Positions 2,528-22,969 of a stretch of 33,959 nt of DNA are shown one piece after another (the first letter of the stretch is position 1; every line of letters begins with the position of its first letter). Source of the DNA: Anaerolineae bacterium (GTDB lineage Bacteria; Chloroflexota; Anaerolineae; Aggregatilineales; Phototrophicaceae); NCBI GenBank assembly GCA_022843745.1, contig JALHNB010000035.1, positions 1 to 33,959 on the forward strand. The letters are read 5' to 3'. The position numbers were made by a program, and so were the translations under genes. A model generated the notes under the pieces. That model ran no database searches. It saw nothing but the letters and a program-made list of their open reading frames with translations, and was not told where the DNA came from.

Positions 2528-2708
2528 CATGAACACTCAAACCGCGTCCACCCCTTCAATTTTTCTAATGCGCATCTGTATGTGCAAATTATTGATATTC
2601 CGGGACGTGTGACGCTAGACAGACGATCAGTTTGTCGCACCAAGCGCAATGGCAAAGAGCCGACCCGTCCCGGGCTGGCTCTTTTTTATTCTATTCAGGG
2701 GCAGATTC
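2528..2708 (+). ncRNA. Structured 5' leader with terminator/antiterminator potential
   Basis: Several pairings can be read directly. There is a 7-bp hairpin TGCGCAT/ATGTGCA (2569-2575 with 2580-2586). An 8-bp long-range stem pairs CCGGGACG (2600-2607) with CGTCCCGG (2666-2673). Inside it is a 6-7 bp hairpin (2607-2613 with 2634-2640, one G-U pair). The right half of the long-range stem lies in the centre of the terminator hairpin (2654-2687), so the two folds exclude each other. This is the usual layout of a transcription attenuator or riboswitch. I see no match to the SAM-I or T-box consensus. The ligand or signal is unknown; the neighbouring genes suggest a sulfur amino acid or related metabolite, which is inference. 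Confidence 0.45.
2654..2687 (+). terminator. Intrinsic terminator in the leader of the sulfur cluster
   Basis: AAAGAGCC (2654-2661) pairs with GGCTCTTT (2677-2684). An inner CCCG/CGGG stem sits between the arms and a run of six T follows. It stands only 21 bases before the mec start codon and no gene precedes it on this strand, so it probably controls entry into the cluster and does not end an upstream gene. Confidence 0.7.
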
Positions 2709-3134
2709 ATGACGATCACGCTGGGAAAATCGCTGCAACAACGCATTTTTAAACATCTTGAAAGCACCTATCCGAATGAAGGCGGCGGCTTCCTGTTGGG
2801 GCGTGTCAGCGGTAAGGATGTGCAGATTGAAGACACCATTCAGATCGAGAATGTGTTTGAGGCGGAAGAACAGTATCATCGTTACGCCATGACACCGCAG
2901 GATTGGGCGCGGCTGGAAGACCAGGCGGATGAGCGCGGCCTGACCCTGGTGGGCTATTACCACAGTCACCCCGATTCGCCAGCGATCCCCTCCATTTATG
3001 ATCGTGACCATGCCCTACCCAACTTCACTTATTTAATCACTCAGGTTCAAAATGGCAGTGCAGTCGATATGCAGGGCTGGCTTTTGCGCACGGATCGCAG
3101 CCAATTCGATGCTGAAAACCTGTCAGTTGGTTGA
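2709..3134 (+). CDS. mec: JAMM/MPN metalloprotease, Mec/HcyD type
   Basis: A zinc peptidase of 141 residues, close to the size of mycobacterial Mec. The complete JAMM site is visible: Glu24 in NEGGGFLLG, then H85-S-H87-P, seven residues, Ser95 and Asp98 (HSHP...SIYD). Mec releases cysteine from the CysO-cysteine adduct, and the related HcyD releases homocysteine from HcyS-homocysteine. Given metY and metX in the same run of genes, I infer that this enzyme frees homocysteine from the carrier encoded at 6962. I chose the ATG at 2709 because it starts the MPN fold properly; an upstream in-frame start at 2649 would overlap the terminator. It is the first gene of the cluster. A general role in removing adducts from MoaD-like proteins is the main alternative. 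Confidence 0.85.
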   Translation: MTITLGKSLQQRIFKHLESTYPNEGGGFLLGRVSGKDVQIEDTIQIENVFEAEEQYHRYAMTPQDWARLEDQADERGLTLVGYYHSHPDSPAIPSIYDRDHALPNFTYLITQVQNGSAVDMQGWLLRTDRSQFDAENLSVG

Positions 3135-3218
3135 TCGAGCAAAAAGATTCAAAGTACCTGACAACGATCAACACTATTTTTAATGAGCAAGAACTTTGTA
3201 GGCAACAGGAGCAAAAAA

Positions 3219-4052
3219 ATGACTGAAGCACTCGTAAGTACCCAATGGGTAGCTGATAATCTTGATAAGGTTCGTTTGATCGAGGTCGATGTGGATACGA
3301 CGCAATATGAAGCTGCCCACATCCCTGGTGCAGCCGCTTTTAATTGGCAAACACAGCTACAGGATCAGGTCGCGCGTGATATTCTCAGCAAAGAGGATTT
3401 TGCCGCACTGCTGGGACAGGCAGGTGTGAGCAACGACACCCATGTGATTCTTTATGGCGATAACAACAATTGGTTCGCCGCCTATGCCTTCTGGCAATTC
3501 AAATATTATGGACATGAAAATGTCAGCCTCATGAATGGCGGACGTAAAAAATGGTTGGATGAAGGGCGACCTGTTACGACAGACGTGCCGAAATATGCAC
3601 CGACCAGCTACACCGTCAAGTCGATCAATGCAGAACTTCGTGCGGATCGTGACTACATCAAGGCACGTCTGGGCAAAGCAGGTTTCGGGCTGGTCGATGT
3701 GCGCTCCCCTGCCGAATATGTTGGCGATATTATTGCCCCTCCCGGCATGACCGAAACTGCCCAACGCCCCGGTCATATCCCCGGCGCTTCAAACATCCCA
3801 TGGAGTCAGGCCGTCGCCGAAGATGGCACATTCAAGAGTGCCGAACAGCTTCGCGAACTCTATGGCAACAAAGGAATCAGCGACAGCAACGACGAAATTG
3901 TCGCCTACTGCCGCATCGGTGAGCGCTCCTCACATAGCTGGTTCGCCCTCACTTATATTCTGGGTTACAAGAACGTCCGCAATTATGACGGCTCATGGAC
4001 AGAATGGGGCAATCTCATCGGCAACCCGATTAAAAAAGGCGCACAGCCGTAA
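3219..4052 (+). CDS. sseA: Thiosulfate sulfurtransferase (tandem rhodanese, SseA/CysA2-like)
   Basis: Transfers sulfane sulfur from thiosulfate or a similar donor to an acceptor through a cysteine persulfide. The 277-residue protein has two rhodanese domains: an inactive N-terminal one (about 5-120, with AAHIPGAAAF and GGRKKW) and a catalytic C-terminal one (about 145-270) with Cys231 in the loop CRIGERSSHSWF. This is the thiosulfate-type active loop shared with actinobacterial CysA2/SseA. The ATG at 3219 follows CAGGAG by 6 bases; an upstream in-frame ATG at 3183 lacks such a site. It lies between mec and metY, so a plausible job is to supply persulfide sulfur to the MoeZ-like enzyme at the end of the cluster. 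That link is inference from position. Confidence 0.88.
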   Translation: MTEALVSTQWVADNLDKVRLIEVDVDTTQYEAAHIPGAAAFNWQTQLQDQVARDILSKEDFAALLGQAGVSNDTHVILYGDNNNWFAAYAFWQFKYYGHENVSLMNGGRKKWLDEGRPVTTDVPKYAPTSYTVKSINAELRADRDYIKARLGKAGFGLVDVRSPAEYVGDIIAPPGMTETAQRPGHIPGASNIPWSQAVAEDGTFKSAEQLRELYGNKGISDSNDEIVAYCRIGERSSHSWFALTYILGYKNVRNYDGSWTEWGNLIGNPIKKGAQP

Positions 4053-4124: not shown

Positions 4125-5477
<1,353 letters not shown>

Positions 5478-5518: not shown

Positions 5519-5638
5519 CTGGCAACCGTAGGGACTCACAGTGCGTCCCATGAGACCATTATCTCTACCCAATATTTGCAATCAACGTAACAGGCGTGTA
5601 GAAAAGAACATGCGATGCTCATTAAGGTAGAGGGAATT

Positions 5639-6814
5639 ATGACAGATTGGCAAAATCGTGTTCATCCGCTGGATGAAGAAACCCGGTCAGTTGGGATCGT
5701 TAAACGTCAGCACGTGGATTTTGACGTTCCATTGCACTTGCGAAGTGGCGAAACTTTGGAACGCTTCACGCTGGCTTATGAAACTTATGGCACGCTCAAC
5801 CATGACCATTCAAACGCCATTTTGATCTGCCACGCGCTCTCTGGTGATTCGCACGTCGCCGGTTATTACACAGATGAGCCGGATGAAAAGCCGGGTTGGT
5901 GGGACGACGCGGTTGGGCCAGGGAAAATGTTCGACACCAACATCTTTTTTGTCATCTGCTCCAACGTTATTGGAGGTTGCCAGGGCAGCACCGGGCCATC
6001 ATCGACTGCGCCGGATGGCAAACCCTATGCCCTGCGTTTTCCGGTGGTTACGGTTTCCGACATGGTGCAGGCACAGCGTCACCTGCTCGACCATCTGGGA
6101 ATCGAAAAATTGTTCGCGGTTGGCGGTGGCAGCATGGGCGGGATGCAAGCGCTGCAATGGGCTGTCGATTACCCGGAGCGCGTGGCGAATGTGCTTTTCA
6201 TCGCCAGCACACCGCGTTCATCCACGCAAAACATCGCTTTCAACGAGATCGGACGGCAAGCGATCTATGCTGATCCGCGATGGAATAACGGCAATTATTA
6301 CAACGGGCAAGCCCCGGCGGCGGGTCTATCGGTAGCGCGTATGATCGGTCACATCACCTATATGAGCGAATACTCGCTGGAAGACAAATTCGGACGGCGA
6401 CTGCAAAACGAGAATAAACTGGCCTACAGTTTTGATACCGATTTCACAGTCGAGAGCTATCTGAAGCACCAGGGTGATAAATTTGTCGAGCGTTTTGATG
6501 CCAACACATATCTTTACATCACCAAAGCGCTGGATTATTACGATGTCAGCGACGGTTATGAATCGATTTACGAGGCGCTGCGACGGACAAAATGTGCGTT
6601 TTTGGTCGTCAGTTTTTCCAGCGATTGGCTGTACACAGCAGCGCAGGCACGAGAACTCGTGGACGCATTGGAAACTTTAGATCGTGACGTACAATATCGC
6701 CATGTGGAAGCGTCTTTTGGACATGACTCCTTTCTGGTTGAGGTCGAAACCATGACCGAACTGGTAGGAGGCTACCTCACCAAACGGTGGAACAGACGCA
6801 GCAACAGCGAATAA
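5639..6814 (+). CDS. metX: Homoserine O-acetyltransferase
   Basis: Activates homoserine with an acyl group (acetyl by family norm) to feed MetY. The 391-residue alpha/beta-hydrolase fold has the MetX landmarks: LICHALSGDSHVAG at 63-75, nucleophile Ser165 in GGGSMGGMQALQW, Asp329 in SFSSDWLYT and His362 in FGHDSF. I chose the ATG at 5639 because AGAGGGA stands about 6 bases upstream; an ATG at 5615 would add eight residues with no such site. Acyl specificity (acetyl or succinyl) cannot be settled by eye, but pairing with a MetY next door favours acetyl. The 161-base gap before it holds the metY terminator, so metX may also have its own promoter. Confidence 0.92.
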   Translation: MTDWQNRVHPLDEETRSVGIVKRQHVDFDVPLHLRSGETLERFTLAYETYGTLNHDHSNAILICHALSGDSHVAGYYTDEPDEKPGWWDDAVGPGKMFDTNIFFVICSNVIGGCQGSTGPSSTAPDGKPYALRFPVVTVSDMVQAQRHLLDHLGIEKLFAVGGGSMGGMQALQWAVDYPERVANVLFIASTPRSSTQNIAFNEIGRQAIYADPRWNNGNYYNGQAPAAGLSVARMIGHITYMSEYSLEDKFGRRLQNENKLAYSFDTDFTVESYLKHQGDKFVERFDANTYLYITKALDYYDVSDGYESIYEALRRTKCAFLVVSFSSDWLYTAAQARELVDALETLDRDVQYRHVEASFGHDSFLVEVETMTELVGGYLTKRWNRRSNSE

Positions 6815-6828
6815 AACAGAAATCTTAT

Positions 6829-6900
6829 GACGTGATGGCCGATTCGGCTAGGCAACGCCCTGTAAAAGCGTTTAAGCGGGTTCGACTCCTGCTCACGGCT
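6829..6900 (+). tRNA. tRNA-Cys-like element with GUA anticodon, possibly degenerate
   Basis: A 72-base cloverleaf can be drawn in the metX-carrier gap. The acceptor stem is 6829-6835 with 6893-6899 (6 of 7 pairs; A2 faces G71). The D arm has a 3-bp GCC/GGC stem at 6838-6853 with GG in the loop. The anticodon stem is 6855-6859 with 6867-6871 (4 of 5 pairs). The loop CTGTAAA places anticodon GTA at 6862-6864. A 5-bp T stem carries the loop TTCGACT (6881-6887), and the discriminator is U (6900). CCA is not encoded. The short variable region, the D-arm layout and U73 resemble tRNA-Cys, not class II tRNA-Tyr, although GUA reads Tyr codons. One C-to-T change would turn GCA into GTA. It may be a decayed tRNA-Cys copy or a tRNA mimic within the cluster. 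Confidence 0.4.
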
Positions 6901-6961
6901 CTGGAAAGTGGTTAGTAACGGACTAATCGCTCAAAACGAATTGACACTGAGGGAGAAACAA

Positions 6962-7231
6962 ATGGCGAGCATTAAAATTCCAACGCCTTTGCGGGCGTTC
7001 ACCGAAAATCAGGCACAGGTTGTCGTCAGCGGCGGAACAGTTGGCGCGGCACTGGATGACCTGACCCAGCGCTTTCCAGAATTACGTCAACATCTTTATG
7101 AGGGTGACAAGCTGCGTAATTTTGTTAATGTGTTTCTTGGTGAAGAGGATGTGCGTTTTCTGGACGGCCTGGAAACAGAAATTGATGCCGACACCAACCT
7201 GCGCATTATCCCCAGCATCGCGGGCGGTTAA
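6962..7231 (+). CDS. cysO: CysO/HcyS-type sulfur carrier protein (ubiquitin-like, ThiS/MoaD fold)
   Basis: An 89-residue beta-grasp protein ending in the free GlyGly that is adenylated and converted to a thiocarboxylate. It begins with ASIKIPTPLR and contains FVNVFLGEEDVRF and RIIPSIAGG. These words closely match mycobacterial CysO and differ from the usual MoaD. AGGGAG is placed 6 bases before the ATG at 6962; longer in-frame starts at 6908 are less likely. Unlike the described Wolinella HcyS there is no extra residue after GlyGly, so no C-terminal trimming is needed. Its partners are in the same cluster: MoeZ-like activator (8721), MetY acceptor enzyme (4158) and Mec peptidase (2709). It could instead serve cysteine synthesis with a CysM encoded elsewhere. 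Confidence 0.88.
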   Translation: MASIKIPTPLRAFTENQAQVVVSGGTVGAALDDLTQRFPELRQHLYEGDKLRNFVNVFLGEEDVRFLDGLETEIDADTNLRIIPSIAGG

Positions 7232-7237
7232 AAACCC

Positions 7238-7765
7238 ATGAAAGTCCGTGAGGCGCGTGAAGAGGATGCCGACAGCATCGCCAGAGTACATGTCGATAGC
7301 TGGCGGACGACGTATCGTGGCATTATCGCGAATACGTTCCTCGAAGCGCTGTCTTACGATGATCGTGAGCGCTATTGGCGGAGTCTGCTCGTACAAACAG
7401 GGCGGACAAGCCTGATTTATGTCGCTGAAGACGACGATGGTGAAATTGTCGGTTTCGCCTGTGGTGGGCCAGCCCGTGAAGACAACCCGGCTTATAGAGG
7501 CGAAGTATTTGCGATTTACATCATCCAGTCAGCGCAGCGACGCGGCATTGGGCGAGCGTTGATCGCAGCAATCGTTCAACGACTGCTGCAACAGGGCATC
7601 GAGTCATTGCTGATCTGGGTGCTGTCTGAAAATCCGTCTACCGCGTTTTATAAGGCACTCGGCGGTCAGCAGATACAGGAAAAGTCGATTGAAATTGGCG
7701 GAGTCAAGCTGCGCGAAATCGCCTACGGTTGGACGGATATTCACCCGCTGGTATCTGGTAATTGA
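7238..7765 (+). CDS. GNAT family N-acetyltransferase
   Basis: A 175-residue GNAT domain covering the whole protein. The N-terminal strand MKVREAREEDADSIARVH is followed by motif A with Q-R-R-G-I-G near 115-120, which binds the acetyl-CoA pyrophosphate. The C-terminal NPSTAFYKALGG is the usual motif B helix. It starts 6 bases after the carrier stop codon with no clear ribosome binding site of its own, so translation is probably coupled to the carrier gene. The substrate is unknown. Placement inside the sulfur cluster raises the possibility of acetylating an amino acid or the carrier protein, but GNAT genes are common bystanders and nothing in the sequence proves a link. Confidence 0.85.
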   Translation: MKVREAREEDADSIARVHVDSWRTTYRGIIANTFLEALSYDDRERYWRSLLVQTGRTSLIYVAEDDDGEIVGFACGGPAREDNPAYRGEVFAIYIIQSAQRRGIGRALIAAIVQRLLQQGIESLLIWVLSENPSTAFYKALGGQQIQEKSIEIGGVKLREIAYGWTDIHPLVSGN

Positions 7766-7820: not shown

Positions 7821-8279
7821 ATGGCAGTCAATAACATGCGAAAAGTGGATCAGACTGGCTTGAGAACCGGCCAGGCGCTCACGATCATTTTGCTCATCCT
7901 GGCGTTTGTCCTCAATGGTTGGCCGCTGGTGGCATTCGTGGCGGTGGCGCAGTTGCTCGGTGGATTGGATTCGCCATTCGCGCCCTACCGTCTGATTTAT
8001 CAGCGCATTCTCAAGCCAAGTGGCCTGCTGAAGCCCAATGTCTACACCGATAACCCAGAGCCGCATCAATTTGCCATGCTCGTTGGTGCAATCTTTAACG
8101 GTGTTGGCACACTTGCATTGTTGGCAGGCGCACCGACTCTTGGCTGGGCGTTGGTGTGGATCGTCATCGCGCTGGCGAATCTCAATTTCTGGTTCAATTT
8201 TTGCACGGGCTGCTGGATGTACTACCAATTTAACCGTCTGGGTGTGCCAGGTTTTGCGCGGAGTCCCATTCATGATTGA
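7821..8279 (+). CDS. DUF4395 integral membrane protein with CxxC motif
   Basis: A 152-residue protein with about four membrane segments (near 19-40, 41-56, 85-104 and 107-126). A conserved FCTGCWMYYQ motif (Cys128, Cys131) follows the last one, and this motif defines DUF4395. Biochemical function is unassigned. DUF4395 genes are often found next to thioredoxins and rhodaneses, which points to membrane redox or sulfane-sulfur handling; that is family context. AGAAGGG precedes the ATG by about 8 bases. The end of the gene overlaps the start of the thioredoxin gene by 8 bases, a sign of translational coupling. Confidence 0.8.
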   Translation: MAVNNMRKVDQTGLRTGQALTIILLILAFVLNGWPLVAFVAVAQLLGGLDSPFAPYRLIYQRILKPSGLLKPNVYTDNPEPHQFAMLVGAIFNGVGTLALLAGAPTLGWALVWIVIALANLNFWFNFCTGCWMYYQFNRLGVPGFARSPIHD

Positions 8280-8673
8280 ACGGATTATTATCGCGCTGGT
8301 TTTGCTCGCTGCCGGGTTTGTCATTTGCCGTCTCTACACCCAACGGCAGTTACGACGCGCATCCAGTAACGCCCCAACGGATCCGATTCTGATGGGATTA
8401 GCGCCGGGTGTGGCAACGATTGTTTATTTTACAACGCCGACCTGTGCGCCGTGCCGTTTGCAGCAGACTCCGACTCTGCAACGCTTGCAGCAGGAGATGG
8501 GCGACGCGCTCCGGGTGATCCGTGTGGATGCCACAGAAGACCCGGACACCGCAGATCGTTGGGGCGTATTCTCGGTACCGACAACCTTTGTGCTGGGTCG
8601 CGACGGCCAGCCCCGCAGCGTTTACAACGGCATCGTTGACGCGCAAACATTGAAACGCGAACTTCAAACGTAA
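8272..8673 (+). CDS. Membrane-anchored thioredoxin-like protein
   Basis: The 133-residue protein starts with one hydrophobic helix (about 4-18) and then a thioredoxin fold with TPTCAPCRLQQTP (Cys58, Cys61), an RVDATEDP strand-turn and the cis-proline loop SVPTTF (Pro103). The active site TCAPC lacks the usual WC of thioredoxin, as in many variants fixed in membranes. The start at 8272 lies inside the end of the DUF4395 gene (ATGATTGA), so the two products are probably made together and may exchange electrons between their CxxC pairs. In this cluster a natural job would be reducing persulfides or disulfides formed by the rhodanese steps; this is inference. Confidence 0.83.
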   Translation: MIERIIIALVLLAAGFVICRLYTQRQLRRASSNAPTDPILMGLAPGVATIVYFTTPTCAPCRLQQTPTLQRLQQEMGDALRVIRVDATEDPDTADRWGVFSVPTTFVLGRDGQPRSVYNGIVDAQTLKRELQT

Positions 8674-8720: not shown

Positions 8721-9977
8721 GTGAAGTCTATGCAACCATTAATTAACGAAACTGTTGCGCTTTCCAACGAGGAAGTCCGACGTTACAGCCGCCACCTGAT
8801 TATGCCGGAGGTTGGGCTGGAAGGTCAGCAAAAACTCAAGGCCAGCAGCATTCTGCTCATCGGTACAGGCGGATTGGGTAGCCCATTGGCGCTCTATCTG
8901 GCTGCGGCGGGGATTGGCCGCATCGGGCTGGTCGATTACGATGTTGTGGACGAGAGCAACTTGCAACGCCAGATTATTCACGGTCAAAGCACCGTCGGTG
9001 TCCTCAAGATTGACAGTGCCGAGCAGCGTATGCGCGACCTGAACCCGTTTGTCCAGGTCGATAAATACAATGTGCCGCTAACATCGGAAAACGCGCTTGA
9101 ACTTTTCGCGCCCTATGATGTGATTATCGACGGGACGGACAATTTTCCGACACGCTATCTGGTCAACGATGCCTGCGTCAAGCTCGGCAAGCCGAATGTT
9201 TACGGCAGCATTTTCCGTTTTGAGGGTCAGTTGAGTGTATTTTATGCCAACGAAGGGCCTTGCTACCGCTGCATGTTCCCGACCCCTCCCCCTCCCGGCC
9301 TGGTTCCAAGCTGCGCGGAAGGCGGCGTACTCGGTATTCTGCCGGGGACAATCGGCACACTGCAAGCGACAGAAGCCATCAAGCTGCTGCTGGGCATCGG
9401 TGAACCGATGATCGGACGGATGCTGCTTTATGATGCGCTGGAAATGAGCTTCACAAAAATCAGGATTCGCAAAGACCCGAACTGCCCGGTGTGCGGCATC
9501 CCGGCAGAGAAAGTCGAACTGATTGATTATGAGCAGTTCTGCGGAATGCCCGCACACGACAAGAGCGAATTCGGTAAAACAACACAGAATGGTCACGTAG
9601 AGGAAAAGGTCATGTCGGAAATTACTGTCGTAGAACTCAAGGCACGTCTGGACTCCGGTGAGGATGTGCTGATTTTGGACGTGCGTAATCCGCAGGAATG
9701 GGAAATCAGTGCGCTTGATGGCTCACTCCGTATTCCCAAGCCGCAGATCGAAGCGGCGATGAACGATGTTCTGGCGGGACGTAAGCCGCGTGAGGCAACC
9801 GTGCTGGCACAAATCCCGACGGATCGTGAGATTATCGTCCAATGCCGTTCCGGTGCGCGTAGTGCCGATTCGATCAAATTCCTGCGCAATGTTGGCTATA
9901 AAAACGAACTCGTTAATCTCAAAGGTGGCATTCTCGCCTGGGCGCGGGAAATCGACCCGGAGATGGCGACGTACTAA
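8721..9977 (+). CDS. moeZ: MoeZ-type E1-like adenylyltransferase with C-terminal rhodanese domain
   Basis: Activates the C-terminal GlyGly of a sulfur carrier with ATP and supplies sulfur from its own rhodanese domain. The 418-residue protein has a ThiF/MoeB domain (about 18-275) with the ATP loop GTGGLGSP at 48-55, DNFPTRY at 140-146, zinc cysteines 181/184 and 255/258, and Cys198 in VPSCAEGG. A linker follows, then a rhodanese domain (about 299-415) with Cys375 in QCRSGARS. The domain order matches mycobacterial MoeZ, which serves CysO. GTG 8721 is 4 bases after GGGAG, while ATG 8730 is 13 bases after it, so the start is not settled. It is the last gene of the cluster. It may also serve MoaD for molybdenum cofactor. 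Confidence 0.92.
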   Translation: MKSMQPLINETVALSNEEVRRYSRHLIMPEVGLEGQQKLKASSILLIGTGGLGSPLALYLAAAGIGRIGLVDYDVVDESNLQRQIIHGQSTVGVLKIDSAEQRMRDLNPFVQVDKYNVPLTSENALELFAPYDVIIDGTDNFPTRYLVNDACVKLGKPNVYGSIFRFEGQLSVFYANEGPCYRCMFPTPPPPGLVPSCAEGGVLGILPGTIGTLQATEAIKLLLGIGEPMIGRMLLYDALEMSFTKIRIRKDPNCPVCGIPAEKVELIDYEQFCGMPAHDKSEFGKTTQNGHVEEKVMSEITVVELKARLDSGEDVLILDVRNPQEWEISALDGSLRIPKPQIEAAMNDVLAGRKPREATVLAQIPTDREIIVQCRSGARSADSIKFLRNVGYKNELVNLKGGILAWAREIDPEMATY

Positions 9978-22563: not shown

Positions 22564-22949
22564 GGGGGTGACATGGCTTCGACAGGGGAGGCTGTGTACG
22601 TGTTGCAGGCCGCGGCGCCCACAGCCGCGTCAACAATGGGCAAGGCTATAAATGCCAAAAACAACAACTACGCTCTGCCAGTCGCCGCCTAAGGCGATGT
22701 AGCTGAGCGCTAACCTTGCGAGGTTAGCCGTCCGCCCCAATCGTATCCGTCTGGTTGGATTGGCGGGCGTCATGAATGACGGAGTGCGGTCACGCTCACG
22801 CCGATAAAGCGGGACCAAAGACAACATCGGATAGCGATAGTTGTACCACGTTAGCCGGGGCTAACTGTCGCAAAAATAAACGGTTGACTAAGCTTGTAGA
22901 AGCATCTATGCGAATCTCTTGGACAGCGGTTCGATTCCGCTCACCTCCA
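22564..22949 (+). ncRNA. ssrA: Transfer-messenger RNA
   Basis: Rescues stalled ribosomes and tags the unfinished protein for proteolysis. The 5' end GGGGGTGACATGGCTTCGAC and the 3' end, with T arm AGCGG-TTCGATT-CCGCT and acceptor strand CACCTCC, form the tRNA-like domain; GGGGGTG (22564-22570) pairs with CACCTCC (22942-22948) with one G-U pair. The tag frame (22654-22692) reads AKNNNYALPVAA and then a TAA stop. ALPVAA at the end is the usual degradation signal. The terminal CCA is not encoded (CAA follows the discriminator A at 22949), so it must be added after transcription. The single-piece, 386-base form is standard. Confidence 0.96.
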
Positions 22950-22969
22950 CAAATATATAACCCTCGCCT

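Follow-up and report, generated by a model that had tools for sequence, protein, structure and literature searches.

Operons for methionine and cysteine synthesis from protein thiocarboxylates were reportedly described by Krishnamoorthy and Begley in 2011. Classes of ThiS-JAB-E1 operon are known (PMC1779556), and the available portions of the literature on thiocarboxylate operons likewise place a ThiS carrier, a JAB peptidase, an E1-rhodanese protein and a sulfur amino acid enzyme together; these portions mention no tRNA, whereas in the locus described here a tRNA-Cys relative lies directly before ThiS. In archaea and in a few bacteria, SepCysS loci are also on record as having tRNA-Cys genes beside cysteine-forming genes (Mukai et al. 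2017, PMC5424206), and it is this placement next to genes of cysteine formation that the present locus shares with them. The neighbours differ, being here of the ThiS, MoeZ, JAB, MetX and MetZ types. The selC*-type and opal tRNA-Cys variants (PMC7609411) are, in the portion of that paper available, also U73 relatives of tRNA-Cys, some of them with a changed anticodon, but they have longer acceptor and variable arms like those of tRNA-Sec and some are accompanied by a second CysRS, whereas the element described here has an ordinary class I body and no second full-length CysRS was found. In the open-licence literature, with subscription papers outside the scope of the search, we found no report of a tRNA-Cys linked to sulfur-carrier or thiocarboxylate operons.

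The locus is contained in a 33,959-nt stretch of DNA (the window; contig JALHNB010000035.1) from an Anaerolineae bacterium of the family Phototrophicaceae, with a genome assembly of 7.96 Mb in 117 contigs. The element begins 14 nt past the metX stop codon and ends 61 nt before the ThiS ATG, and its neighbours are given in Table 1. The alpha/beta hydrolase preceding it is taken to be MetX, a homoserine acyltransferase, as it was named in an earlier sequence-only reading; the PLP enzyme is presumably of the MetZ/MetY type and the E1-rhodanese fusion presumably of the MoeZ type. The thioredoxin-like protein probably starts later than the first position of its open reading frame. Because the element and ThiS are on the same strand and a promoter and terminator scan returned no terminator-like site between 6829 and 6962, the two may be co-transcribed; the same scan returned no usable promoter. 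Elsewhere in the window, ARAGORN and Rfam identify an ordinary tmRNA gene at 22564-22950 (+) with the tag AKNNNYALPVAA.

ARAGORN called a tRNA-Tyr(gta) at 6829-6901 (+), and the general Rfam tRNA model RF00005 scored the 6829-6900 element at 42.5 bits, above the gathering cut-off of 29, so that the tRNA likeness put forward in the sequence-only reading holds under a covariance model; the element ranks last in score among the 46 tRNA matches of the window genome. All of the features listed in that reading are present, namely a cloverleaf with U8, A14, the D-loop GG, U33, the loop CTGTAAA and the tRNA-Cys discriminator U73 and without an encoded CCA, together with a variable region of 4 nt. The mismatches it claimed, one in the acceptor stem and one in the anticodon stem, were located at pairs 2-71 and 31-39 and amount to two among 20 stem pairs in a hand-set register. 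For the window copy, the fold predicted to have the lowest energy is something other than the cloverleaf (z -0.61), as against z values of -1.98 and -2.52 for two intact copies from relatives. The resemblance is more than chance, since a covariance model built from 17 operonic tRNAs of relatives with the window left out (model R1) gives the element 65.7 bits (E 2.5e-14 over 85 sources). With canonical bacterial tRNA-Cys(GCA), such as the gene in L019 of the same genome, the element shares U73, the CTGYAAA loop, the short variable region and the lack of CCA; it differs in having another acceptor stem (62% identity), a GUA anticodon in place of GCA and two broken pairs.

Table 1 Features of the window around the tRNA-Cys-like element
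Feature	Position	Strand	Basis
Prok-JAB metallopeptidase	2649..3134	+	Pfam PF14464
Two-domain rhodanese (sulfurtransferase)	3183..4052	+	Pfam PF00581, two stretches
Cys/Met metabolism PLP enzyme	4143..5477	+	Pfam PF01053, 1.1e-134
Alpha/beta hydrolase, read as MetX; Pfam gives the fold only	5615..6814	+	Pfam PF00561
tRNA-Cys-like element, GUA anticodon, discriminator U73, CCA not encoded	6829..6900	+	ARAGORN, RF00005, model R1
A2 opposite G71 (6898): broken acceptor pair 2-71, A.G	6830	+	Hand register
C31 opposite A39 (6867): broken anticodon-stem pair 31-39, C.A	6859	+	Hand register
Anticodon GTA; middle base 6863 is T, versus C in the 16 intact copies of relatives	6862..6864	+	Hand register, alignment
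ThiS-family sulfur carrier with GG at its C terminus; in relatives, the gene that follows the tRNA-Cys	6962..7231	+	Pfam PF02597, 5.7e-10
GNAT acetyltransferase	7238..7765	+	Pfam PF00583
DUF4395 protein	7821..8279	+	Pfam PF14340
Thioredoxin-like protein	8038..8673	+	Pfam PF00085 at ORF residues 127-210
ThiF/MoeB-type E1 enzyme fused to a rhodanese domain	8721..9977	+	Pfam PF00899 and PF00581

The window genome encodes elsewhere one class II tRNA-Tyr(GTA) (in L013) and two tRNA-Cys(GCA) genes, neither of which encodes CCA and one of which also has a single acceptor mismatch. A true tRNA-Tyr was ruled out, because the tRNA-Tyr of this genome is class II and the element, with U73 and no long variable arm, is class I. 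A recent duplicate of the genome's own tRNA-Cys was likewise rejected: with those two genes the element shares 62.0% and 59.2% identity, versus 80.3% with its nearest sequence, the operonic tRNA-Cys of genome G105. The sequence-only reading of a tRNA-Cys relative with a Tyr anticodon is supported, relatives carry a tRNA-Cys at the same place, and the comparison with the true tRNA-Cys and tRNA-Tyr of the genome sets the element apart from both. It appears to represent, in this genome, a group of additional tRNA-Cys genes placed directly upstream of the same ThiS-type gene.

How this group arose has two possible answers. In a tRNA tree of about 75 columns, with weak deep forks, the window copy falls beside that of G105 with weak support and the operonic copies do not form one clade, those of G010, G131 and G149 grouping with off-operon tRNA-Cys (supports 67-78). 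The off-operon tRNA-Cys of G009 is 71.8% identical to the element, exceeding several operonic copies, and the nearby forks are weak. Since the tree does not unite the operonic copies, a tRNA-Cys may have been recruited or replaced at this site more than once; an old operonic gene that was lost several times is the other possibility. The window genome (L030 1501-1572, C101) also has a second type of off-operon tRNA-Cys whose acceptor stem differs, and this type is found in G148, G109 and G149 as well (L166, L233, L294).

Other GTA relatives were sought with a sequence pattern in 154 genomes of the order, 62 of which yielded a total of 63 matches. Thirty-three were identified, comprising 24 tRNA-Thr(TGT), one tRNA-Sec, one tRNA-Ser, two class I tRNA-Tyr from family f7, four strings with no tRNA call and the window element itself; about 18 of the other 30, from genus g18, look like the identified tRNA-Thr strings. 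The f7 genes, in L279 (G053) and L280 (G048), are class I tRNA-Tyr(GTA) with C1-G72 and A73, and similar strings occur in four more f7 genomes. C1-G72 with A73 in tRNA-Tyr is an archaeal-type identity reported for CPR bacteria in the accessible part of PMC5370408. ARAGORN also called a tRNA-Sec (TCA) at L265 1449-1543 in G009, a genome of the same family as the window.

The linkage to ThiS was surveyed by searching the window ThiS protein against 151 genomes of the order, which gave matches in 118, and 120 ThiS places were read for tRNAs, one of them (L071) with only 58 nt of upstream sequence. At 17 of the 120 places, ARAGORN found a tRNA no more than 250 nt upstream of ThiS, on the coding strand in every case. 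These hold 18 tRNAs, of which 17 are tRNA-Cys(GCA), spread over 16 places, and the last is the GTA element of the window; apart from it, no non-Cys isotype was found upstream of ThiS at the 120 places. Extending the view to 600 nt upstream and to the fetched downstream part (5 to 1500 nt) added no other tRNA. In G131 (L067 849-1020), two tandem tRNA-Cys(GCA) genes lie directly upstream of ThiS. Model R1 found degenerate elements at two more ThiS places, in G035 (47.7 bits) and G019 (35.1 bits), so that an element at this position is present at 19 of the 120 ThiS loci of the order, all in a single family and on the coding strand throughout. R1 gave no additional element in 29 other loci of the order or 25 of the class; its matches in L114 (15.2 bits, E 0.37, inside the ThiS gene) and L314 (11 bits, E 2.4) were dismissed as chance. 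A twentieth genome, G032, has the tRNA after MetX at a contig end, with ThiS not seen.

All 20 element-carrying genomes belong to the family of the window, in which the tRNA-Cys stands by ThiS in nine genera and is intact in seven. The element is absent from 68 of the 87 family genomes with ThiS (L071, with its short upstream sequence, being counted among the 68) and from all 31 ThiS genomes of the order outside the family. A class-wide search listed 43 places, of which five were already covered, 25 more were read and 13 were left out (a second place in G277 and the 12 weakest); none of the 25 has a tRNA beside ThiS. In the genome collection, three of 47 named loci have the element; their tRNA sequences are identical to those of G149, G010 and G005, which identifies them as the records of these genomes. 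Such surveys start from ThiS and do not by themselves show that these tRNAs are exclusive to it. A search of 61 genomes with the DNA of the element gave six genomes besides the window, four with a tRNA beside MetX or ThiS and two, G009 and G027, in which the tRNA-Cys is unlinked. R1 was also run on ten genomes, and the tRNA-Cys genes read there were of the operonic or off-operon types. The gene preceding the tRNA is MetX in the window, G016, G005 and G131, rhodanese in G026, G008 and G105, and JAB in G142 and G129, and the next gene of the set after it is ThiS in all nine of these loci, as expected if the tRNA is tied to ThiS. On a ThiS tree of 89 columns (117 of the 120 rows, the weaker places L350-L352 being omitted; 68 of 114 inner branches open), presence of the element changes at least 10 times, a rough figure. 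The genome with the most similar ThiS (G023, 84%) lacks the element, so the state just before the change in the window lineage is not visible.

The operonic copies of the relatives show the marks of selection on a folded RNA. In the 17-copy alignment, 98.5% of 340 cells are paired and both partners have changed in 14 of the 20 pairs; shuffling the alignment 500 times never gave as high a value on either measure. The 16 intact copies have no mismatch in 320 stem pairs in the hand-set register, and all of them keep GCA and U73. Positions 8 and 14 carry T and A in eight of the 16 and G and G in the other eight; off-operon tRNA-Cys rows have T and A in 16 of 16, and canonical tRNA-Cys has U8 and A14. 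Together the pairing, the covariation, the kept U73 and GCA and the coordinated states of positions 8 and 14 are taken as evidence that the intact operonic copies are real, folded tRNAs. The replacement of the near-universal U8-A14 by co-varying G8 and G14 (L056, L061, L062, L082, L105, L106, L140, L297) provides natural variation at this contact of the tRNA core; a Hoogsteen G8-G14 pair was earlier suggested for one Haloferax volcanii tRNA-Thr gene, in the part of PMC2584109 available. The general Rfam model scores the operonic copies from 39.5 (G129) to 69.8 bits, a range that holds the window copy, and gives no match for the elements of G035 and G019; in G140, the best match within the clan is tRNA-Sec at 32.9 bits, below the cut-off of that family.

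Another tRNA-Cys was found in 19 of the 20 element-carrying genomes; in G026 (88% complete, 1180 contigs), none was seen among the matches examined. The idea that the operonic gene is the sole tRNA-Cys of genus g17 was discarded, since R1 found another in the five g17 genomes. Given these other tRNA-Cys genes and the absence of the element from most ThiS loci of the family, the operonic tRNA-Cys is likely to be dispensable. Nineteen of the 20 genomes, the window genome among them, each have one CysRS above the cut-off; G151 (88% complete) has weak CysRS matches, none of them complete, and G024 has an extra partial match of 148.8 bits, below cut-off. SepRS was over its cut-off in none of the 20 genomes, with weak matches in 11, and the window genome has neither a SepRS match nor a second full-length CysRS. 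On these counts, a second CysRS or a SepRS serving the element was rejected, and no special charging enzyme was found.

This bears on the recoding tRNA suggested in the sequence-only reading, an active mistranslating species that would insert Cys (or Tyr) at Tyr codons. A GUA anticodon with U33 and A37 formally reads Tyr codons, and in the available part of PMC9976931 U73 is a major Cys determinant that suffices alone in minihelices. The GCA anticodon is the other major determinant in E. coli and yeast (PMC9976931, same part), and since both are major determinants the GUA copy should charge poorly with Cys; even if charged with Cys, it would read Tyr codons. The element has two broken stem pairs and lacks both A73 and the long arm seen in the class II tRNA-Tyr of this genome, and the genome has one CysRS over cut-off and no SepRS match, so we consider a recoding function extremely improbable.

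The window copy departs from the conserved pattern in three ways, by C35 -> U and by the two broken pairs. Assembly or sequencing errors in an intact operonic tRNA-Cys might in principle have produced the GTA or the mismatches, the genome being in 117 contigs and its species represented by one assembly in the analysis, but three separate departures fall within 72 bases and the open reading frames on both sides are full length, which makes errors a very poor explanation. Four stem pairs (7-66, 10-25, 27-43 and 49-65) are changed on both sides between the window and G105 copies, as read from the alignment, suggesting that the structure was under selection until recently.

Genus g20 shows a similar loss. 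Its G129 copy keeps GCA and has C73 and one mismatch, and its G035 and G019 copies have neither the GCA anticodon nor U73 and carry two mismatches each; the four copies without GCA and/or U73 (the window, G129, G035 and G019) are the same four that have mismatches. A single mismatch is in itself no proof of loss, as one is seen both in G129, which keeps GCA, and in one of the window genome's other tRNA-Cys genes. Substitutions in the element number 11/71 for G129-G035, 19/72 for G129-G019 and 12/71 for G035-G019, alongside ThiS four-fold site differences of 8/48, 9/47 and 4/48 (Fisher p 0.27 for G035-G019), and from these counts the g20 element appears to evolve roughly as fast as silent sites do and shows no constraint. 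The spacer between tRNA and ThiS in g20 (L066, L068, L069) is, unlike the tRNA, nearly unchanged across the three species and may be a promoter or leader.

In a retained role other than decoding, the element would be a tRNA-like RNA with little or no charging, or a tRNA-like leader on the ThiS transcript, and would act as an RNase P processing site or as a regulator that binds CysRS. Such a role would fit the loss of the anticodon while U73, the T arm and the D and T loops are kept, the same-strand position directly upstream of ThiS at the 19 places, and the G035 and G019 copies, in which the anticodon loop is altered and most stem pairs remain. However, U73 is also gone in those two copies, the element there changes near the silent rate of ThiS, most ThiS genomes of the family do without it, and the predicted fold of the window copy is not a cloverleaf. 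We regard such a role as unlikely.

The kinship of the element to operonic tRNA-Cys, its linkage to ThiS, the covariation among its relatives and the loss of the anticodon and two pairs are observed, and loss of function in the window copy is inferred. The element is most probably a pseudogene, the recently disabled copy of a dispensable second tRNA-Cys embedded in the operon. Part of the family would carry a second, divergent tRNA-Cys gene within a sulfur-assimilation operon, directly upstream of the ThiS-type gene. In relatives the intact tRNA-Cys(GCA) would presumably be transcribed along with the operon and cut out by RNase P; it would then serve as an additional Cys-tRNA of the ordinary kind, supplied in step with sulfur assimilation. 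In the window lineage, C35 -> U would have ended the reading of Cys codons and two stem pairs would have broken, leaving a pseudogene that is perhaps still transcribed within the operon. The decay would need to be recent, because the copy still has U73, sound D and T loops and most of its stems. Of the three meanings offered in the sequence-only reading, the dead gene copy fits best, although as a member of the operon-linked group and not as a copy of the genome's own tRNA-Cys; a mimic sensed by CysRS is at most a possibility. A more elaborate scheme, in which a dedicated second tRNA-Cys with a core of its own (G8 and G14 in half of the intact members) is a functional part of the carrier operon, where it ties the level or charging of Cys-tRNA to carrier expression or serves a carrier-dependent tRNA reaction, and in which the RNA gave up decoding in the window lineage and g20 and persisted for some time as a tRNA-like regulator, seems to us distinctly doubtful.

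Read as a recently disabled tRNA-Cys, the window element catches a tRNA gene in the course of giving up decoding. The ThiS-linked tRNA-Cys group to which it belongs is of more interest than the window copy itself, and the pairing of tRNA-Cys with ThiS suggests that the supply of Cys-tRNA is coupled to thiocarboxylate-based sulfur assimilation in this family.
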